Assembly (NCBI RefSeq): GCF_002259585.1
Contig: NZ_MWWS01000004.1
Location: forward strand, 310,001-374,000
From: Bombiscardovia coagulans
GTDB taxonomy: Bacteria; Actinomycetota; Actinomycetes; Actinomycetales; Bifidobacteriaceae
DNA length: 64,000 nt
Direction: 5' to 3'
Part shown: one piece after another, positions 9,976 to 64,000 of the stretch
How the letters are laid out: each line of letters opens with the position of its first letter
Numbering within the stretch: position 1 is the stretch's first letter
The notes under the pieces: generated by a model
The model's input: the letters and a program-made list of their open reading frames with translations, nothing else
The model's database searches: none
What the model was told of the DNA's origin: nothing
Translations under genes and position numbers: made by a program

Positions 9976-10411
9976 CTACTGCTCCTTTGCTCAACTCTAC
10001 ATATCGAACCGGTACGATAGGCATTGTAGCGCATTTTTTTTAAAATGTGAATTAGACTCTCTCACTACGTTTTTTAGTAAAGTGACATTGTCGGGGAGTT
10101 AACATGTATCTTATAGGAGAAAACTCATATAATCTGTAGCCAACCACCTCACCTGCTTAACCACACCGTCAGCAATTACCCAAACACCAACTTACACTTT
10201 TTGCTTTGTTAGCATCACTCTTCCCTTCCTCTCTTTACTTGAGCTCACGCCTGAGCTACATCATAGAACACGCCTAATTGTTACCGTCATGCTACCATGT
10301 AAGACACCTGAGATATTTTACACTTAGAGAATAAAATAGGCGTTATCTTTAACACGAAGGAACGCTTGGTGTTAGGCACTTATTGCACCGTGCACTCGTG
10401 GGAGGGATTCA
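9976..10411. other. Divergent intergenic region, no gene seen
   Basis: AT-rich 436-bp gap between ppgK (minus) and the RCC1 surface-protein gene (plus). It must hold promoters for both. I see several AT-rich hexamers, but no pair with clear -35/-10 spacing that I would defend. The right end carries GGGAGGG, the ribosome site for the TTG start at 10412. No open frame of note. Confidence 0.5.
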
Positions 10412-13400
10412 TTGCACAGTAAACGTTCAGCTACTGCTATATTCATATCAATGCTTGTCCTTGCAATAGTGATCGGTTCGCTTACTTTCCTTTCTCCAAC
10501 TAATGCTAAACCTTTGCAACAAGCACCATCACATTTTTCTGCGTTTAGTACTGTAAATTCTTCACAAACGATTGAAGGATTTACACTTAGCCCTACTCAA
10601 GGACCAGCAAACAAAGAAGCAACAGCCTCACTGACACCACCTGAATCAAAGGTATTGATTTTTTCACAGATCAGTGCAGGCCGTGATTTTAATCTCGGCT
10701 TGAGTGTTGACGGGTACGTGTATGCATGGGGACATAATTATGATGGACAATTTGGAAATGGTACGGTAAATGCCGACAGCATGTTCCCCGTTCGTGTAAA
10801 AACACCAGAGAGTGTACGTATCACACAAATTAGCGCAGGTTACCAACATGGCCTAGCCATCGGCGATGACGGTAATGTTTACACATGGGGCAAAAATAGT
10901 TTTGGCCAACTTGGAGATGGCACCACAAGCAATCAAATTGAACCAGTTCTCGTACAAAAACCGAAAGGTGTGCAATTTACACAAATTAGCGCAGGAGATT
11001 ACCATAGTCTCGCCATCGGCAACGACAAACATGCGTACGCTTGGGGTTTAGATATGGGACAGCTAGGAATCCCGAATGGAAACTCTGAGAAGGTAGTACC
11101 TATTCCTACCAGAGTCGACCAAACGCTCTTAGATAGCACTCCAGGCAGCGAGTACATTAGCGTCAGTGCAGGTTCTCTACATAGTTTTGCTCTTGGAAGC
11201 GACGGACACTCCTACGCATGGGGAAGCAACTCATACGGGCAACTCGGTGTCGACAGCACATCAACAAAAATTATTCTTCCTGAGCGGGTAAGAATTCCCC
11301 ATGGCATATACTTCACACAAATCAGTGCAGGCCGTCTGCATAGTTTGGCTCTCGGAAGCGATGGACACGCCTACGCATGGGGAAGAAATAATGCAGGACA
11401 GGTAGGCGACGGCACCGCTGACAACAAAAAAGTACCTACTCGGGTGGGAGAAACTGACAACTCACGAACAACCTATATCAGTGCAGGAAATAATGTCAGT
11501 CTAGCTATTAACGATAGTGGGCATGCGTATGCATGGGGAACCCCAAACTGGAATCTCGGTGATAGCGCTGAAAGCAAATCAAGTAAATTACCCCTGCGTA
11601 TAGACGAAGCCAGACTTAACAGCCGGCAAGACAGAAAATACGACCGTGGAATTAGTGCTGGAGCATGGGGCAACTGTATCATTCTCGACAATGCAGGGCA
11701 TGCCTACAGCTGGGGAAATCGAATACAAGATTCGAATAGAAGCATTCCCCAAGAGGTCAGTACGTATAAATATGAAATTCGTAGCGTTAAGTTTGATACT
11801 CAAGCGGTACAGGACAAAAGCATTGACCAGAGTAGTGGCAAATGGAATATGCAGGTACCCCTCCATAAGGCCGCAATCGTAGACGTTCAGGCTCAATACG
11901 ACGTCATCATAAAAAGCGCTCAGGACTATGACATCTCCATCAAAAATGATAGCATCACCTTCCGTTACGAATACAAAGACGGGTTCACAGTACATTTCGA
12001 CCTTGGCGGCGCACCAGGTACTCCCCCTCCTGACCAATATGTCGATGCAGGAGGAATGCAACACATACAACTACCAGATATGCCAGTATGGACAAAACAC
12101 TGGTTTAACGGCTGGGTCCAAGATAACGGCAAATTCTGGGACTTTAATAAACCAGTCACAGATAGTTTCACCCTAACAGCTCAATGGGAACCCTACAAAT
12201 TCAAATTAACACCTGAAGCAGGCCCAACAGTCGGTGGTAACACCGTAGTAATAACACCGCCAGACTCACCAAAAGGAATACACTACTTACAACTTGCAGG
12301 AGGCCAAAGACATAGTGTTGCTCTTGGAAGCGACGGACACATATACACCTGGGGAAACAACTCATTTGGGCAACTAGGCAACGGAACTCAAGTTGATAGT
12401 AAAGTGCCAGTTCGAGTGAAGGCACCTAAAGGTGTACTTTTCACAAAAATTAGTGTTGGCGATTCGCATAATCTCGCATTAGGAAATGACGGACACACAT
12501 ATGCATGGGGTTGGAATTCATTCGGCCAGATTGGGGACGGCAGCACAACTCACAAAAATGCGCTTGTGCGAGTGAAGGTGCCCGAGGGTGTCCGTTTTAC
12601 CCAGATTCATGCTGCAAGCTATCACTCAATAGCACTCGGTTCAGATGGTAAAGCATATACATGGGGGCAAAATAGCTTCGGTCAGCTCGGAGATGGAAAA
12701 GACCACAATTCAGAACCAAGCACACCAAAGAACCCACTTCCTGCTCCAGCAAAGACTCCTGATGATGTACAAATCACCAATGTCAGCGCGGGCATGACCC
12801 ACAGCGTTGCCACTAGCAGCGACGGTCATATCTACCACTGGGGTAACTGGCTCTGTTTAACCGGCGTTATCACTGATGACGACAAATCGCAGTGCAGCAA
12901 GTTCCCCACATCGACACCTTCTCGTATTGTTGAAAACTTGCCTGCTGGCGTACAGGTTATCCAACTGAAATCAGGAATGCGAGTTGATATTGCACTCTGC
13001 GATGATGGACACACATATGCATGGGGGAAAAATTATAACGGTGAATTTGCTAATGGGACAAGAAATATTCATTCTATAACGAACCCAGTTCGTGTTGGAC
13101 AACCTGATGGTGTGCATTTTGCAACTATTAGTGACATTGCAGGAGGACAGGTTCTAGCTCTTGGCGATGATGGACATACATATGCATGGGGAAGAAACGT
13201 CGAGGGTCAGCTAGGCAGCAGCAATAAAGAATATGTTGTGTCACCTGTTCGCTTCAAAACACCGGATGGCCTGCACTTTACTAGCATTGGTACAGGAAAT
13301 AGCCACACTCTCGCCTTTGGCAGTAATGGACACGCCTATGCTCTAGGTTCGAATTCACATCGACAGATCGGAAATAGTGACATAGGGAAACAAGCCAAGG

Positions 13401-13768
13401 AAATTGTTGAGGTAAATCCACTGAAGATCAGTCTCAATGGTATGAGATTCGATAAAATTGCAGTTGCCACTAAACCTAAACGTGACGACACTGAAGAGGT
13501 ATGGAAAGTAACCGCACCAGCCCATGACTCTGGTAAAGTCCAAACTACTATCCAGTGGACATTAGGTGGGGCTGAGCAGGAAGACTATGAACTTCCCTAC
13601 TTTTACTATTTTGTCCTTCCTGATGCTGGTGCCATACCATTCCAAAAATTATATGGCGGCACGCTCGCCTTATTGAGTGTTATAGCAGCACTAACGTGGG
13701 CTAGCTATGGCACTATCAGAAACTACCGCACCAAAGGCCGACATAAGCGCAATATTTCGACAACCTAA
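10412..13768 (+). CDS. Cell-wall-anchored RCC1-repeat surface protein
   Basis: 1118 residues, exported and probably sortase-linked. N-terminal signal peptide (positive start, hydrophobic core, cleavage near residue 32 after TNA). About residues 84-450 hold seven RCC1 repeats of the form ISAG..HSLALGSDGHAYAWG.N..GQLGDGT; about 626-996 hold seven more. Each set of seven would close one RCC1 beta-propeller. Before each set is a TIG-like stub (SPTQGP and TPEAGPTVGGNTVVITPP), and after each a similar beta segment (VKFDTQAV and MRFDKIAV). Between them, about 521-594, is an InlB-type B repeat (FTVHFDLGGAPGTPPP ... FTLTAQW). The C-terminus has LPDAG at 1069-1073, a hydrophobic stretch and a basic tail: a variant sortase signal. 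The start is TTG with a strong GGGAGGG site. Role inferred: adhesion or binding at the cell surface; ligand unknown. Confidence 0.85.
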   Translation: MHSKRSATAIFISMLVLAIVIGSLTFLSPTNAKPLQQAPSHFSAFSTVNSSQTIEGFTLSPTQGPANKEATASLTPPESKVLIFSQISAGRDFNLGLSVDGYVYAWGHNYDGQFGNGTVNADSMFPVRVKTPESVRITQISAGYQHGLAIGDDGNVYTWGKNSFGQLGDGTTSNQIEPVLVQKPKGVQFTQISAGDYHSLAIGNDKHAYAWGLDMGQLGIPNGNSEKVVPIPTRVDQTLLDSTPGSEYISVSAGSLHSFALGSDGHSYAWGSNSYGQLGVDSTSTKIILPERVRIPHGIYFTQISAGRLHSLALGSDGHAYAWGRNNAGQVGDGTADNKKVPTRVGETDNSRTTYISAGNNVSLAINDSGHAYAWGTPNWNLGDSAESKSSKLPLRIDEARLNSRQDRKYDRGISAGAWGNCIILDNAGHAYSWGNRIQDSNRSIPQEVSTYKYEIRSVKFDTQAVQDKSIDQSSGKWNMQVPLHKAAIVDVQAQYDVIIKSAQDYDISIKNDSITFRYEYKDGFTVHFDLGGAPGTPPPDQYVDAGGMQHIQLPDMPVWTKHWFNGWVQDNGKFWDFNKPVTDSFTLTAQWEPYKFKLTPEAGPTVGGNTVVITPPDSPKGIHYLQLAGGQRHSVALGSDGHIYTWGNNSFGQLGNGTQVDSKVPVRVKAPKGVLFTKISVGDSHNLALGNDGHTYAWGWNSFGQIGDGSTTHKNALVRVKVPEGVRFTQIHAASYHSIALGSDGKAYTWGQNSFGQLGDGKDHNSEPSTPKNPLPAPAKTPDDVQITNVSAGMTHSVATSSDGHIYHWGNWLCLTGVITDDDKSQCSKFPTSTPSRIVENLPAGVQVIQLKSGMRVDIALCDDGHTYAWGKNYNGEFANGTRNIHSITNPVRVGQPDGVHFATISDIAGGQVLALGDDGHTYAWGRNVEGQLGSSNKEYVVSPVRFKTPDGLHFTSIGTGNSHTLAFGSNGHAYALGSNSHRQIGNSDIGKQAKEIVEVNPLKISLNGMRFDKIAVATKPKRDDTEEVWKVTAPAHDSGKVQTTIQWTLGGAEQEDYELPYFYYFVLPDAGAIPFQKLYGGTLALLSVIAALTWASYGTIRNYRTKGRHKRNISTT

Positions 13769-13802: not shown

Positions 13803-13852
13803 AAAGCCTAGGACCACAAGACATCCTCAGTCAAGTCCTAGGCTTTCTTTAT
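13803..13852 (+). terminator. Rho-independent terminator after RCC1 gene
   Basis: Twelve-base perfect stem AAAGCCTAGGAC / GTCCTAGGCTTT with a 20-base loop, followed by TCTTTATA. It lies 35 bp after the RCC1 gene stop codon and probably ends that transcript. Confidence 0.8.
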
Positions 13853-55463: not shown

Positions 55464-57590
55464 TTACTCCCCGCGCTGTGCCTTGATGATTTCCTCGCTG
55501 ACGACCTTAGGAACTTCAGCATAAGAATCCATCTGCATAGTGAACATGGCGCGGCCCTGAGTCTTTGAACGCAGATCTCCGATATAGCCGAACATTTCTG
55601 AAAGCGGCACCTTAGCGTCAATAACCTTAACGCCAGTTGCATCGGTCATGGACTGGATAGAACCACGACGGGAGTTAATATCACCCATTACGTCGCCCAT
55701 GTACTCTTCAGGAGTACGTACTTCCACTGCCATAATCGGTTCAAGAATGACTGGCTTCGCCTTGTGAGCAGCTTCCTTAAAGCACATGGAACCTGCAATC
55801 TTGAAGGCCATTTCCGAAGAGTCAACGTCGTGAATTTGACCATCAGTCAACGTTGCCTTGACACCGACAACCGGGAAGCCTGCCAAAATACCGGACTCCA
55901 TAGCTTCCTGGACACCTGCATCTACTGAAGGAATAAATTCCTTAGTAATATGACCGCCGGTAACCACGTTCTCGAATTCGTACGTCTCTCCAGACTCAGT
56001 GTCTAGAGGCTCGAAGTTCATGAGAACCTTAGCAAACTGACCAGAACCACCGGTCTGCTTCTTATGGGTGTATTCCTGGTTCATGACAGCCTTGCGGATG
56101 GTCTCACGATAGGCTACCTGAGGCTTACCAACGTTGCACTCCACATGGAACTCTCGCCTCATTCGGTCTACCAAGATGTCCAGCTGGAGCTCACCCATAC
56201 CTGAAATCAAAGTCTGTCCTGATTCTTCGTCAGTCTTGACCTGGAAGGTAGGATCTTCTTCAGAAAGCTTCTGAAGTGCGATGCCCATCTTTTCTTGATC
56301 AGCCTTTGTCTTTGGTTCGACAGCAAGCTGAATCACTGGTTCAGGGAAGGTCATGGACTCTAGAGCGACGGGTTCCTTCTCATCGCACAGGGTATCACCA
56401 GTTGTAACATTCTTGAGACCAACGAACGCATAAATATTACCTGCTATAGCCTCTTCAACAGGATTCTCCTTGTTGGAATGCATCTGGAAGAGCTTACCTA
56501 TGCGTTCCTTCTTACCCTTAGTAGCATCCAAAACAGAATCGCCTTGAGAAACTCTACCTGAGTAAACGCGCACGTAGATGAGCTTGCCATAGAAGGGGTG
56601 AGTAGCAACCTTAAAGGCCAATGCTGAGAATGGTTCATCTACAGAAGGCTTACGATCGATTTCGACTGATTCGTCACCAACCTTGTACCCCTTGATAGCT
56701 GGCACATCCTCTGGGCTAGGCAGGAAATCCACCACGGCATCAAGCATAGGCTGCACGCCCTTATCTTTGAATGCCGAGCCGCAGAATACTGGGAATGCCT
56801 CTTGAGCAATAGTGAGCTTGCGCACAGCAGTACGAATCTCAGCTTCGCTGATCTCCTCGCCACCTAAGTACTTTTCCAGAAGGGATTCATCAGATTCAGC
56901 AACAGCTTCAATGAGCTGAGTACGGTAATCCTCGGCCTTTTCCTTGAGATCTTCTGGAATTTCAATGGTGTCGTAGCTAGCACCCAAATCCTGTCCGTCT
57001 TGCCAGGAGTATGCAACCATACGTACCAAGTCAACCACACCACGGAAGTCGTTCTCAGCACCGATTGGTAACTGCATTACGAGAGGCTTAACGCCCAGCT
57101 TGTCCTTAATGGTGTCAACTGAGTAGTAGAAGTTAGCACCCAACTTGTCCATCTTGTTGATGAAGCAAATACGAGGAACTCCATACTTATCGGCCTGACG
57201 CCAAACGGTCTCTGACTGAGGCTCAACGCCTTCCTTACCATCAAAAACAGCTACAGCACCATCGAGCACGCGTAGGGAACGCTCTACCTCAGCGGTAAAG
57301 TCGACGTGACCTGGGGTATCGATGATGTTGATCTGATAACGGTCTTTGGTGTCATGAGACTGACGGTTCCAGAAGGCAGTGATTGCAGCAGACGTGATAG
57401 TGATGCCGCGTTCCTTCTCCTGATCCATCCAATCCATGGTTGAAGCGCCGTCGTGCGTTTCACCAATCTTATAGTTGACACCGGTATAGTACAGAATACG
57501 CTCGGTCGTTGTTGTCTTACCAGCATCGATGTGAGCCATGATGCCAATATTGCGGACCTTAGTTAGGTCTGTCAGCACGTCTTGTGCCAT
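55464..57590 (-). CDS. fusA: Translation elongation factor G
   Basis: 708 residues; moves tRNA and mRNA on the ribosome. G motifs [33 protein letters not shown]; later [14 protein letters not shown] and [18 protein letters not shown] (domain IV-V). Typical length. Second-last gene of the str operon, starting 25 bp after rpsG. The ribosome site is a weak GAGAGCGAG. Confidence 0.99.
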
Positions 57591-57615
57591 AATCGTATTT
57601 CTCGCTCTCTACTTA

Positions 57616-58086
57616 TTACCAGCGATAGTGGGCGAAGGCCTTGTTTGCCTCTGCCATCTTGTGCGTATCTTCACGCCTCTTGACAGATGCTCCCAAACCA
57701 TTAGAGGCATCGAGGATCTCGTTAGCTAAACGCTCAGCCATAGTCTTCTCACGACGAGCACGGCTATAATCGGTGAGCCAGCGTAGAGAGAGGGTGTTGG
57801 CACGGTTTGGCTTAACCTCCACGGGAACCTGATAGGTAGCACCGCCGACTCGACGGGAGCGAACCTCTAGGGATGGACGAATATTGTCCAAAGCGCGCTT
57901 GAGAACTGCAACGGGTTCTTGGTCAGTCTTGGCCTTCACCTGTTCAAGAGCGGAATATACGATGTCTTCCGCGATGGACTTCTTACCATCAAGCAGAATT
58001 TTATTAATCAGCTGAGCTACAACCGTCGAACCATAAATAGGGTCTGGCAGCAGCTGGTGCTTTTTAGCTGGTCCTTTACGCGACAT
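57616..58086 (-). CDS. rpsG: 30S ribosomal protein S7
   Basis: 156 residues: [34 protein letters not shown] and [14 protein letters not shown] match S7, which nucleates the 30S head. It starts 2 bp after the rpsL stop, with AAGAAGG inside the rpsL 3' end as ribosome site. Confidence 0.99.
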
Positions 58087-58088
58087 GC

Positions 58089-58460
58089 TTACTTAGCCTT
58101 CTTTGCTCCATACAGGGAACGACCCTGCTTACGATCCTTGACACCCTGGGTATCGAGCGCACCGCGCACGATATGATAACGCACACCAGGCAAATCCTTA
58201 ACACGACCTCCACGTACTAGCACGATGGAGTGTTCCTGCAGGTTGTGACCTTCACCAGGAATGTAAGCACTAACTTCAACACCCGAGCTTAGACGCACAC
58301 GAGCGACCTTACGAAGTGCCGAATTAGGCTTCTTAGGAGTGGTGGTGTACACACGGGTGCAAACGCCGCGACGAAGCGGGCTACCCTTCAAGGCTAAAGT
58401 CTTCGACTTACGAGTCTTAGCCTTGCGTCCTTTACGGACGAGCTGTTCAATTGTTGGCAA
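58089..58460 (-). CDS. rpsL: 30S ribosomal protein S12, TTG start
   Basis: 123 residues. [14 protein letters not shown] at the start, then [18 protein letters not shown] and [20 protein letters not shown]. The usual Lys43 and Lys88 are unchanged, so no streptomycin-resistance change is seen. The conserved protein begins exactly at a TTG (58460), with GGAGAGA six bases before it; the open frame from 58604 has an N-terminus that does not match S12. First gene of the str operon. Confidence 0.98.
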
Positions 58461-58689
58461 CTGATTCTCTCCGATTCTTTTCCAACTTGTTCCGTTACTT
58501 GTGGAGCCGCCACTGTGCTGACTCAACCCAACCGAAACCCTATCGGAGAGCAAAGATGCCACAGTCCACCGGCCCGATGGCCCACAACCCTCCCGCTGCC
58601 ACATTACTGTGCGCTATCTAACAGGTTGTTAGGATATCCCAGCACCCACAGCTATCACATAAGCTATGCTACTGGCACATACAGGTTTT

Positions 58690-58717
58690 AATATAGCACA
58701 TGCCCTGACCAAGTAAA
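58690..58717 (-). promoter_or_regulatory. Candidate str-operon promoter
   Basis: On the minus strand TTTACT (58717-58712) and TATATT (58695-58690) with 16 bp between. If used, the rpsL leader would be about 220 bases, which leaves room for regulation. Only motif-based. Confidence 0.4.
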
Positions 58718-58950
58718 TCTATGCGAATATAAGCTTGACCTTTGAACCATACGTAAGGCCTTCCCAACTCGCTAACGATATCTGACTACCTGCATGATTC
58801 TTGGACTTCTCGCTCACTCAAACCAGTTAATGCCTATGTTCACAACGGCCGAGTATCCCCTTTTGTACTTTTTACAGTAATCACCATTGCACGGTCAGCT
58901 AATATACTATCGGATTTCAGTTCTCCACCATGTAAGTTCTCTACCATGTA

Positions 58951-59651
58951 TCACCGTTGTGTATCACTGTTAGGCTTAAGCACCCTGGCAGCTTTCCCTC
59001 CGATATGCGGGCTCTTCTTGTCGATGCACTTCTCTTTCTCAAAGTCAGCCTCATCGCCCCCCATCCACCAGTGACACCTATCCGTATAGGCAGGGTGGAA
59101 ACTGTTAGTAGCGTAGCGCTTTACCTTCGTTGTTGAAACGATCCCCTAATGACTTTAACGGTAAAGCAAACAAGGGGCTGACATCGCGTTCAACGGTGGT
59201 AAACAGGCGCAAAACAGAAAACCTGGGAAAACCAAAAGCAGAATTAGCGTCCCATAAGCCTTTGTGTTCTGCACTCGCCATAGCAATAGTTAAAGGGTAA
59301 AGACTGTTACCACCAGTCTATTATCTGAGCACAAAGCGATATTGCGATGCCCTTTCCCTTACAGGCGACAGTAACATATTTGGTGACTCGTACGACAAGC
59401 CTGTTGTCATATTAAAAAACACCGGAATCAAAGCCGTTCGTATGGGCTAGATACACCAAAATACTTGACAGGGGGAAAGTCAGAAACCTGGACAACGAGT
59501 TGATATGCCAACCGTAAAGATGTTTTGGGCCAGCCTCGAGAATACAGCTGAGCATAACGATCCCATGTTTACCATCTCAGACGACGCCCAAGTCATATTC
59601 AAACGCTTTCTTCCTTTCAAACACAGAACAACTTGTAATAGCCCAAAACAT
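58951..59651 (-). other. Unexplained block: decayed coding sequence or structured RNA
   Basis: No gene of normal length is present, but on the minus strand protein-like open pieces follow one another in changing frames: about 59596-59480 (38 codons, MTWASSEMVN...), 59410-59321 (MTTGLSYESPNMLLSP), 59317-59105 (70 codons, with FALPLKSLGDRFNNEGKALR) and 59145-58951 (64 codons, with HPAYTDRCHWWMGGDEADF). The plus strand is also partly open. An 11-base perfect inverted repeat ATGTTTTGGGC (59520-59530) / GCCCAAAACAT (59641-59651) could form a long-range stem. A frameshifted pseudogene and a structured RNA both fit. Confidence 0.4.
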
Positions 59652-59747
59652 GTACCTGTCAGCTAATTTCATCCTATCGGCGCGCTTAGTCAGAGGTTAG
59701 TGTAAAGTAGTCATCTGTTGCAGCGTATATCACATGCACTGCGCATG

Positions 59748-59823
59748 GTGGCTATAGCTCAGTCGGTAGAGCACCTGATTGTGGTTCAGGAGGTCGCGCG
59801 TTCGAGCCGCGTTAGCCACCCCA
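59748..59823 (+). tRNA. tRNA-His (anticodon GTG)
   Basis: Cloverleaf complete: acceptor GTGGCTA / TAGCCAC, D-arm with TAGCTCAGTCGGTAGAGC, anticodon loop TTGTGGT with GTG at 59781-59783, T-arm GTTCGAGCC, discriminator C73 as required for tRNA-His. CCA is encoded at 59821-59823. Followed at once by a terminator. Confidence 0.97.
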
Positions 59824-59828
59824 GATCA

Positions 59829-59866
59829 AACCCCTACTCCCACAAAGGAATAGGGGTTCTGTTTTA
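59829..59866 (+). terminator. Terminator of tRNA-His
   Basis: AACCCCTA.TCC / GGA.TAGGGGTT with a 6-base loop and one mismatch, then CTGTTTTAT. Starts six bases after the tRNA CCA end. Confidence 0.88.
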
Positions 59867-60007
59867 TCTCTTCCCGAAGCGAGTCCGAGCAAGACTTGTG
59901 CGCAATTTGTACCCAGCTATTGCCAAAGCCAAATCAGCGAGCACATCACTTGCCCCCGTCCGCAGGTGAGGAGAACACAAGCACACCTAGGAGCATCGAC
60001 CGGACAA

Positions 60008-63000
60008 GGACTATCCCCGCATACACGGGGAACACTAAAAAATTTGCCAACGTAAATGTACCGCACCAAGGATCATCCCCGCATGCACGGGGAACACGCG
60101 ATTGGTAAGCTCGTCTGTGAGCCTGTCCGCGGATCATCCCCGCATGCACGGGGAACACGTGTGGAGCGTCACCACATATTGCCCTGCAACGGGATCATCC
60201 CCGCATGCACGGGGAACACCTTCTGGTATTACGACAACAAGTCCCACCGTAGGGATCATCCCCGCATGCACGGGGAACACCCGATAATCGCGTACCGTCC
60301 CTGACTAGGACAGGGATCATCCCCGCATGCACGGGGAACACATACCTAATAAGGGACATTTCTTCGTCGAACCAGGATCATCCCCGCATGCACGGGGAAC
60401 ACTCAGCTGATGAGCAGTGGCATTCCTGTTTTGCAGGGATCATCCCCGCATGCACGGGGAACACCGTATGAGTGACAAAATCGTTGCGATGCATACGGGA
60501 TCATCCCCGCATGCACGGGGAACACTCTTTAACGCTACCTCGTGGCGGTGTTGGGTCCGGATCATCCCCGCATGCACGGGGAACACGAGGTGAGGCAATA
60601 ATAGCTCATACTAAAGATGGGATCATCCCCGCATGCACGGGGAACACTGCTTTCAAGACAGCCGATAAGCAGCTCAAGGAGGATCATCCCCGCATGCACG
60701 GGGAACACATTTCCAGTCGGTCTGCCTCGTTCTCTCCCTGGGGATCATCCCCGCATGCACGGGGAACACCTTCGGCTGAATCCCCGGAGACGAAGGCATG
60801 GAGGATCATCCCCGCATGCACGGGGAACACACAAGGCAAAAATTAACCAGATGGCAGCATCTAGGATCATCCCCGCATGCACGGGGAACACGATGGCTAC
60901 GAGGTTTTAGGCAGATTCGGACTAGGATCATCCCCGCATGCACGGGGAACACCTCGGTCTAGTGGCGATGATTGAGCTTGTCGAGGGATCATCCCCGCAT
61001 GCACGGGAAACACTCAGTGAGACTGAGCATACAAGTAAGTAAACAGGGATCATCCCCGCATGCACGGGGAACACTTAATGAGTATCAATGAGGGCGTGAT
61101 GCCGCTAGGATCATCCCCGCATGCACGGGAAACACGATTTGTGAAGGGCTGATTAAGATTGAGTCTGAGGATCATCCCCGCATGCACGGGGAACACCACG
61201 TCCTTATATCGGCTCGGGCGTGCTGCCTGGGATCATCCCCGCATGCACGGGGAACACAAGTTGTGTTTTCGATTGCTTTCCACATATCGGGGATCATCCC
61301 CGCATGCACGGGGAACACGATTCAGTGAATCCTTGCACTCACAGCAAGCAGGGATCATCCCCGCATGCACGGGGAACACGAGCTAATGTAGCGGCCGACT
61401 ATACTACTGCGGGGATCATCCCCGCATGCACGGGGAACACGAGAGTATCAGGTGTATAATACGTTTCGCGATGGGATCATCCCCGCATGCACGGGGAACA
61501 CTGCCCCATCCTGCTCATTGCGCTTCCTCCGTAGGGATCATCCCCGCATGCACGGGGAACACGATTGCAGGTTTTAGTAACAGCCTAGTAGCGTGGGATC
61601 ATCCCCGCATGCACGGGGAACACGGTCCCCAAGGTATCATCAAGCATGATTCGGAGGGATCATCCCCGCATGCACGGGGAACACTACTCTATCATATGTG
61701 TAATTTACGCCGATAGGGGATCATCCCCGCATGCACGGGGAACACACCTATGAGCATACAGATAATTACAATTTAGACGGATCATCCCCGCATGCACGGG
61801 GAACACTCATGGGGAGGTAGAAGAGCGCTAGCAAAATGGAGGATCATCCCCGCATGCACGGGGAACACTAGGATGGTGATTTTTCGTTGGTGTATGTGAC
61901 GGGATCATCCCCGCATGCACGGGGAACACTTTTAAATCGCTATAATCTGTCGCTTTCGTCTCAGGATCATCCCCGCATGCACGGGGAACACCTTTTATCG
62001 AGCATAGTCGCTATCATGCTTTCGGGATCATCCCCGCATGCACGGGGAACACCGTGGCACCATACAGCACGCTGACCTCGCTTTTGGGATCATCCCCGCA
62101 TGCACGGGGAACACCGCATATCACTAGTAGTGACGGCATGGAGCTCACGGATCATCCCCGCATGCACGGGGAACACCTGGTGAGTGTCGGCATTATCGGC
62201 GCTTTTAGGGGATCATCCCCGCATGCACGGGGAACACTCGGTAGTAGATGGTACTATTGATTCTTCTAAAGGATCATCCCCGCATGCACGGGGAACACAG
62301 AATCCTCTACAGCCCAGCCATCAGCCTGCCAGGATCATCCCCGCATGCACGGGGAACACCCCACGGATCACAAAGTGAACAACAAGTGGCTGGGATCATC
62401 CCCGCATGCACGGGGAACACTGAGCGTGCAGATGCTTTCGCTGCTGCACTCCAGGATCATCCCCGCATGCACGGGGAACACTGTCAGATACAGGGCGGCG
62501 TGTCGTACTTCAGTGGGATCATCCCCGCATGCACGGGGAACACTAATCCCACATCCTTTAAGCCTATCGGCGTAAAGGATCATCCCCGCATGCACGGGGA
62601 ACACCCACGGCAAGCCCAACGTCAAATGGCGAAACGGGGATCATCCCCGCATGCACGGGGAACACAATACCGGGATCATAGGCTTCCCATACTCCTTGGG
62701 ATCATCCCCGCATGCACGGGGAACACCACGCGCTGGCGGGGCACAATATCCCGCCATGAGGATCATCCCCGCATGCACGGGGAACACATGCTCTTGTCAA
62801 TCGCATTTGCGGAACGTACAGGATCATCCCCGCATGCACGGGGAACACAGGGACCAAAGGCATTCAGTGGGGACACGTCTAGGATCATCCCCGCATGCAC
62901 GGGGAACACAATACAAGAAACTACTAAAAATTAAAAAGAACAGGATCATCCCCGCATGCACGGGGAACACACAGGTAGCTTTTACAAGGTAGCTTTTCGA

Positions 63001-64000
63001 CTTGGATCATCCCCGCATGCACGGGGAACACTATAGCTACTCGTGGAATACGCCCTTTGAAGAGGGATCATCCCCGCATGCACGGGGAACACATACGCCA
63101 ATATTTAGTGATAAATTGCGTACCAGGATCATCCCCGCATGCACGGGGAACACAAAACATCATCAGCGTACCTGCCTTTAGCGATGGGATCATCCCCGCA
63201 TGCACGGGGAGGAACACTTATGGACATCACGGAAACGGGAGGAACACTAAGGATCATCCCCGCATGCACGGGGAACACTCTACCACATCCTGAAGTACAT
63301 GGTGATATTAGGGATCATCCCCGCATGCACGGGGAACACGTAAATCCAATTCCGGAATCTCTGAGTGAGCTAGGATCATCCCCGCATGCACGGGGAACAC
63401 GGCCCGCAAGGTGTTATTAAGCACGATTCGGCGGGATCATCCCCGCATGCACGGGGAACACAATTTTGGCTGACAGTTTTTACGATTGCTTTTGGGATCA
63501 TCCCCGCATGCACGGGGAACACCGTGAGGGATGGTAGAGGTGGCAATAGTGAAAGGGATCATCCCCGCATGCACGGGGAACACGAAGACGGAGCCTAAGA
63601 CACCAAAAGAAAGACGGGATCATCCCCGCATGCACGGGGAACACATACGATCAGCTACCGCGCTTTGCAGGATCTGGGGATCATCCCCGCATGCACGGGG
63701 AACACTGTCATCACCTGGAACAATATGATCACAATCAGGGATCATCCCCGCATGCACGGGGAACACGATGACAGGATTTTACAGCGATTTACGTACGGGG
63801 GATCATCCCCGCATGCACGGGGAACACTTTACTTTCTATGCAGCTTTATCGTTCGCATAGGGATCATCCCCGCATGCACGGGGAACACGGGTCCCAAGCA
63901 TTCTGTGAATACATTCTACGGGGATCATCCCCGCATGCACGGGGAACACAGGCAAGAGAGTCTCCAGAGGGTGTCTGGAGGGGGATCATCCCCGCATGCA
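60008..64000 (-). CRISPR. Type I-E CRISPR array, 66 repeats in window, continues past edge
   Basis: A 28-base repeat (on the plus strand GGATCATCCCCGCATG followed by CACGGGGAACAC) recurs from 60008 with a period of 61 and occasionally 62 bases. I count 66 repeats and 65 spacers; the last repeat (63983) is cut off by the window end. Spacers are 33 bases, seven of them 34. The reverse complement begins GTGTTCCCCG and carries the CCCCG/CGGGG stem like the E. coli I-E repeat, so transcription should run on the minus strand with the leader beyond 64000. The repeat at 60008-60035 has three changes, as expected of the leader-distal end. Repeats at 60986 and 61108 share one G-to-A change; the repeat at 63187 has a 3-base insertion. 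No cas gene lies in the window. Confidence 0.97.

Follow-up and report, generated by a model that had tools for sequence, protein, structure and literature searches.

Surface proteins with RCC1 repeats have been described in bifidobacteria of the bee gut. In the accessible text of two reports, B. asteroides is credited with 19 copies of a protein carrying RCC1 and a Listeria-Bacteroides (Flg_new) domain (PMC3447821), and bee-gut bifidobacteria with 7-24 RCC1 genes per genome, whose products have 2-4 domains of seven repeats on average, an LPxTG signal and a Flg_new repeat before each RCC1 domain; the second report also speaks of diversifying selection on these proteins (PMC4449606). Here, we analysed a stretch of 64,000 nucleotides from Bombiscardovia coagulans (contig NZ_MWWS01000004.1, positions 310,001 to 374,000; hereafter the window), in which a single open reading frame (ORF) at 10412-13768 on the forward strand, where all of its features given below also lie, encodes a member of this family with 1118 residues. 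The original prediction, made from the sequence letters, had taken it for a surface protein and had called such bacterial proteins little studied. The ORF was confirmed, and the second statement holds for the function of the family, which is unstudied, but not for the family itself, which was described in 2012 and 2015 in the two reports named. The new point is the nested architecture. We consider it fairly probable that the product is a display protein which is secreted and anchored by a sortase, and that it consists of two tandem units, in each of which an RCC1 propeller lies within a split TIG/IPT domain and exposes a variable face that binds a ligand.

The repeats were counted with a profile built from the protein's own 14 repeats and afterwards refined on the family. 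The profile gave 14 matches (E 3e-4 to 4e-27), seven in residues 86-436 and seven in residues 627-1002, and the two sets of seven that had been counted by eye were thus recovered. Propeller 1 was assigned to residues 86-454 (10667-11773) by the repeat profile and Pfam, and propeller 2 to residues 627-1003 (12290-13420) by the repeat profile, a structural model and a match to UVR8; the Pfam matches for the whole protein were PF25390 (E 9e-156) and PF00415 (E 7e-124). The same profile was applied to the window protein and 79 others, taken from stretches of this genome or of relatives that had been fetched around strong matches; the sample is not a census. Exactly seven repeats were found in 155 of the 167 propeller units of these 80 proteins. 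The 12 exceptional units had 4 to 8 repeats, and several of them belong to ORFs clipped by the end of a stretch or by the choice of start; the first unit of L081_+0_990 has eight. Single-unit proteins of B. xylocopae carry eight repeats (L103) or six (L102, outside the 167 units), and L102 begins at a contig end, where an assembly artefact is possible. Seven repeats per unit is therefore the rule, but not an absolute one.

The AlphaFold model of the whole protein was poor (mean predicted local distance difference test, pLDDT, 39.9) and did not resolve propeller 1. Unit 2, modelled with 13 alignment rows, reached a pLDDT of 80.4 and a predicted template modelling score of 0.81. Residues 32-414 of this model matched UVR8, the plant ultraviolet-B photoreceptor (entry 8gqe), with Z 49.1, a root-mean-square deviation of 2.2 over 356 residues and 27% identity. 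In the model, propeller 2 is a closed seven-bladed ring and not an open solenoid. The assumption of the original prediction that seven repeats close one propeller is thus supported by structure prediction for the second block, whereas for the first block a ring is predicted from the repeat count and homology.

Each propeller is flanked by two conserved pieces. The upstream piece, or leader, lies at residues 52-80 (10565-10651) in unit 1 and at residues 594-621 (12191-12274) in unit 2, and follows the pattern P..GP..GG..V.I.PP, that of the start of a TIG domain. The downstream piece, or trailer, lies at residues 455-521 (11774-11974) and 1004-1067 (13421-13612), and follows the pattern V..V.F......W.V..PAH..G.V.V.I.WTL.G..Q......Y.Y, that of the rest of the domain. 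The four pieces were placed by the family alignment and by leader or trailer profiles, with co-variation as further evidence for both trailers and the model (for the leader, its strands) for the two pieces of unit 2; in unit 1, the pieces are the putative N-terminal and C-terminal parts of the first split domain. The likeness to TIG was tested. From 50 aligned proteins of 1000-1200 residues, 38 had both leaders, and every third of these was taken, giving 13 proteins with 26 units. The leader alone matched TIG (PF01833, E<=1) in 4 units, the trailer alone in 3, and the two pieces joined in 17 of the 26, with a best E of 1e-4. A joined leader and trailer profile was further found to align to an IPT domain of Plexin-A1 over positions 4-87 of 90 (whole-sequence E 3e-8; 0.007 for the aligned stretch alone); the IPT domains of plexins form a tandem array.

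The two pieces are also found together across the family. Leader and trailer profiles, built from the 26 units and counted on a set that includes those units, both matched around 138 of the 155 seven-repeat units, and the leader was present upstream in 139. This agrees with the TIG-like leading modules of the original prediction. Matches on the wrong side numbered 5 for the leader and 1 for the trailer profile among the 167 units, and 12 of the 16 seven-repeat units without a leader match offered at most 14 residues to search. Furthermore, the one-unit relative L103 has one leader and one trailer, and no B-repeat match.

With the same profiles, co-variation was found between leader positions 15-20 and trailer positions 30-35 (0.055, rank 2 of 768 bands; 142 units, 93.5 effective). 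When partners were shuffled 200 times within unit position and within three groups (G002, G021 and the rest), the best band anywhere was 0.018. When the two units were exchanged inside 49 proteins, the band fell to -0.029 (rank 664), whereas these units gave 0.049 (rank 6) when correctly paired. Co-variation of leader and trailer is thus a property of the single unit and does not extend across the two units of a protein. The co-varying positions would presumably be strands B and E of TIG, which pair, and the strand order in the unit 2 model fits one beta-sandwich formed from leader and trailer.

Several observations weigh against a single split domain. Pieces joined in the wrong order matched TIG in 16 of the 26 units, the wrong-order profile found plexins equally well, and the joined pieces of the window protein's own first unit gave no Pfam match. 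Since the wrong order scored about as well as the right one, the joined-piece search was rejected as proof of nesting; it points to the TIG-like character of the pieces, not to their closure on each other. In four units, a leader match was still missing although the whole upstream stretch was available. The co-varying patch had been noticed before it was tested, a bias that is covered by taking the best band anywhere as reference, and a parallel reading of it scored as well as the antiparallel one (best 0.057). In the unit 2 model, the pLDDT was lower in the leader (60-70; trailer 68-81), and the TIG part had no structural match in the fold searches, where only residues 31-416 were spanned by at least a fifth of the VIA rows; this gap does not exclude a TIG fold.

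On these grounds, leader and trailer could instead be two separate beta modules framing a free propeller, as the original prediction had pictured them. The missing match to any solved structure, the equal score of the wrong-order join and the lack of Pfam TIG matches in all seven intact family proteins scanned would suit such an arrangement, but the complementary pieces around most seven-repeat units and their co-variation within the unit speak for one domain, and an interruption by about 370 residues would alone be enough for profile searches to miss a TIG domain. We therefore regard separate modules as quite unlikely. Because both pieces flank 138 of the 155 units, because L103 has one of each and because co-variation is confined to the unit, leader and trailer most likely belong to a single TIG/IPT Ig (immunoglobulin)-like domain that is interrupted by the propeller; the framing modules of the original prediction are thus present, but are better described as parts of one domain. 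We infer that the leader would supply the first two strands and the trailer the remaining ones, and that the Ig-like domain would clamp both ends of the ring and join it to the stalk. The failure of standard domain searches to detect the TIG part would likewise follow from such a split.

The two units would be connected by an InlB-type B-repeat (Flg_new) at residues 525-591 (11984-12184). As had been predicted, it separates the two sets, although its PF09479 match (E 1.4e-4) has 22.3 bits, below the curated cut-off of 27. The age of the two-unit plan was assessed in a tree of 127 seven-repeat units, all taken from proteins with two units. On this tree, the label switched between 'first' and 'second' 10 times, compared with at least 36 times in 200 shuffles, and the nearest neighbour was a unit of the same position in 120 of the 127 cases and the partner in the same protein in 2. 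Therefore, the two-unit plan appears from the tree to predate most of the paralogue spread, which supports the earlier idea that a whole leader-propeller-trailer unit was duplicated and places the event before that spread. Among 1176 pairs of relatives, the two propellers differed by more than 30 points of identity in 8, and the second propeller was the similar one in all 8. Since these pairs keep the second propeller while the first diverges, exchange of protein halves is suggested.

Variability was scored over the 49 blade columns in 1159 repeats. Columns 6, 7, 23, 25, 38 and 44, which are taken as the candidate binding face, were the most variable (entropy 3.7-3.8 bits), and W21 and G22 were nearly invariant. 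An entropy of at least 3.5 bits was reached by 10 of the 49 columns, including those aligned with UVR8 W285, D96 and D107. In the printed alignment with the UVR8 mutant entry D96N/D107N/W285A, judged by eye, these three residues fall at columns 25 (D96), 36 (D107; 3.5 bits) and 6 (W285). We take them to lie at the UVR8 dimer interface. With UVR8 as the closest fold and its mutated residues at variable columns, the propellers might bind each other in the manner of the UVR8 homodimer and so form cell-cell contacts or a surface layer. However, the columns concerned are among the least conserved, which fits many partners better than one shared interface, and we hold homotypic binding to be unlikely.

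The ratio of nonsynonymous to synonymous substitution rates (dN/dS) was pooled over 38 of 39 related pairs, which are not independent, and was 0.31 for the six face columns, 0.32 for loop 33-39 and 0.12 for the rest, with column 36 counted in two classes. One propeller pair of genome G008 had a nonsynonymous proportion of 0.333 over a synonymous proportion of 0.201 at the face. A point against a ligand-binding face is that no positive selection appears there in the pooled values, which are below 1 in all three site classes. The sequence comparison thus points to faster change at the candidate binding face, not to positive selection, and relaxed constraint at exposed sites would look alike. The diversifying selection mentioned in the accessible text of PMC4449606 is not shown by the pooled values.

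Large and divergent paralogue sets, and the 8 pairs with a kept second and a divergent first propeller, would also be expected of a variable coat that shields the cell from phages or host defences without any specific ligand. The blade cores are nevertheless strongly conserved and the pooled dN/dS remains below 1 in every class, so that we give such a coat little credence. It is very unlikely, in our view, that the propellers capture or inhibit secreted enzymes in the way of BLIP-II with beta-lactamase. The fold matches include BLIP-II (3qhy, Z 23.7; 1jtd, Z 23.5), but it ranks under UVR8, HERC2, RPGR and RCC1, and no target is suggested by the genes on either side (ROK family, glycosyltransferase), though the latter point is weak evidence. 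The window protein and its paralogues are most likely a repertoire of anchored proteins with a predicted ligand-binding role, in which the variable propeller face would bind a host, pollen or microbial surface.

The C-terminal end was as predicted of the sortase type. The motif LPDAG (residues 1069-1073, 13616-13630), which opens a longer family signal LPxAGxxP, is followed by a membrane segment at residues 1080-1104 (13649-13723), delimited by hydrophobicity and seen as a helix at residues 1083-1104 in the low-confidence full-length model, and by a basic tail at residues 1105-1118 (13724-13765) read directly. From this motif, LPDAG is predicted to couple the protein covalently to the peptidoglycan of the cell wall. 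Five matches to the pattern LPx[A/T]G, followed by one residue, a hydrophobic residue and P[L/F], were found in the genome, all with Ala and each at the end of an RCC1 ORF, and the reversed pattern is absent from the genome; the sixth RCC1 protein ends in LPLTG. In the genus, the Ala form was counted 25 times in G002, 31 times in G021, 5 times in the window's genome and 0-4 times in each of the other 24 genomes, with 0 or 1 reversed match per genome, and RCC1 proteins of relatives have both LPxTG and LPxAG forms. Further LPxAGxxP ends of G002 and G021 lie outside the fetched stretches.

The window's genome has six sortase matches. A tandem sortase pair is found in this genome (G000) and in G001, G002, G021 and G026, all with LPxAG ends, and G017 has a divergent form of the pair; the loci concerned are L226, L227, L228, L230, L232 and L233. 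RCC1 proteins with LPxAG also occur in G008 and G012, which have two sortase matches only, and LPxAG was present in 16 of 30 proteins from further loci lacking a genome label, some of those genomes having three sortases. Because two-sortase genomes carry LPxAG proteins, the original suggestion that LPxAG calls for a special class of sortase is not supported, and the tandem pair was rejected as a required cognate enzyme; what remains is an association of the pair with ends of the LPxAGxxP type, perhaps within one lineage. Two sortase genes of nearly identical sequence (L045, L046) lie close to the ends of contigs C9 and C14, perhaps a repeat that broke the assembly.

The genome of 1.74 Mb encodes six RCC1 ORFs; the window protein has 2 units and the others have 2, 4, 3, 2 and 2. 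PF09479 exceeded the curated cut-off in all five of these paralogues scanned, with 1 B-repeat for 2 units, 3 for 4, 3 for 3, 2 for 2 and 1 for 2. The window protein likewise has one Flg_new for its two units and not one before each RCC1 domain, and we read this as variation inside the family, because other members from the genus show similar differences in number. RCC1 matches were obtained in 23 of the 27 genomes of the genus (E<=0.001). Family-wide, 23 of 151 genomes matched at E<=1e-30, namely 21 of the 27 in the genus and 2 of 124 elsewhere. G002 and G021 have 26 and 23 RCC1 frames of at least 350 residues in the fetched stretches alone (L049-L081), a few of which may be gene fragments. 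More broadly, we entertain, as a tentative reading, that bee-associated bifidobacteria share a binding scaffold of 1 to 4 units per protein, with the propeller between TIG strands B and C and a face that varies among paralogues, so that each strain would have its own repertoire of receptors on anchors, with a logic like that of other variable-surface receptor families. A family that is annotated but lacks a function would thereby gain a testable design, in which a split Ig domain grips both ends of a ring and candidate binding positions are named. Should bee, pollen or microbial surfaces be bound by the face, this would help to explain how the symbionts hold their niche and how strains differ.

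A scan of named genomes, which may omit records close to the window's genome, gave no match with a single-protein query and three loci, all of B. xylocopae, with an alignment query. Viral scans gave no relative with one query and one weak match with a paralogue query. Environmental viral contigs (IMG/VR; for example L188, L175, L145 and L151) carry very long RCC1-repeat frames, the longest listed having 4634 residues from stop to stop, and repeat matches were found in at least 162 ORFs, a few of which are from B. xylocopae; a simple TIG start motif was found in none of the viral RCC1 ORFs. In a literature search, with subscription papers mostly outside its reach, nested TIG in RCC1 proteins was not found in print. 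The words TIG, IPT and Ig-like are absent from the main text of PMC4449606, and records on RCC1 with 'TIG domain' gave nothing related by title and abstract start. 'RCC1' in PMC8013792 stands for recombinant CEACAM1, and in the part available of an Ostreococcus paper for strain numbers; both were set aside as unrelated.

The ORF starts with TTG, the only start considered, and starts were scripted mechanically as the first ATG, GTG or TTG. A purine-rich ribosome-binding stretch, GGGAGGGA (10400-10407), was read upstream of it, and direct reading places a putative signal peptide at residues 1-32 (10412-10507), with a basic start, a hydrophobic stretch and ..SPTNA. Since the neighbours, a ROK-family protein and a family 2 glycosyltransferase, lie on the other strand, the ORF is probably transcribed alone. 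Downstream of the stop, a terminator-like hairpin followed by a T-rich stretch (13803-13846) folds at -20.3 kcal/mol (z -5.5), a value equalled by none of 200 shuffles; it was absent from a consensus terminator scan limited to loops of 3-8. Elsewhere in the window, positions 60001-64000 have a G+C content of up to 0.55 and an AT skew of 0.16, compared with a G+C content of about 0.46-0.50 in the rest. At Rfam gathering scores, only a transfer RNA (59748-59820) was listed in 56000-64000, so no ribosomal RNA explains the rise.

Compared with known systems, the unit 2 model shares with UVR8 the closed seven-bladed ring of RCC1 type, and W285 of UVR8, a light-sensing residue, falls at a column that is among the family's most variable. 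The profile of joined leader and trailer aligns with the plexin IPT/TIG domain over nearly its whole length, but the plexin domain is not interrupted there by a propeller. BLIP-II is a bacterial RCC1-like propeller like the units described here, with solved chains of about 270 residues, and it is not known to have an anchor or TIG pieces. Among RCC1-like proteins of Hepatoplasmataceae, symbionts of isopods, one is predicted to combine a seven-bladed propeller with Ig-like folds; in the passage concerned, the propeller is N-terminal with four such folds, and nesting is not mentioned (PMC10928387). The saccharibacterial minor pilin PilX2 places a seven-bladed RCC1-repeat propeller on the cell surface, as proposed here, but according to the text available it is carried by a type IV pilin and not by a sortase-type anchor (PMC12206443). 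The closest counterparts are the bee-gut bifidobacterial proteins, which, as far as the accessible text goes, share with the window protein about seven repeats per domain, Flg_new, a sortase-type end and many paralogues (PMC4449606, PMC3447821). Their 2-4 domains compare with two in the window protein, which differs from that description by its LPDAG end and its single Flg_new (PMC4449606).

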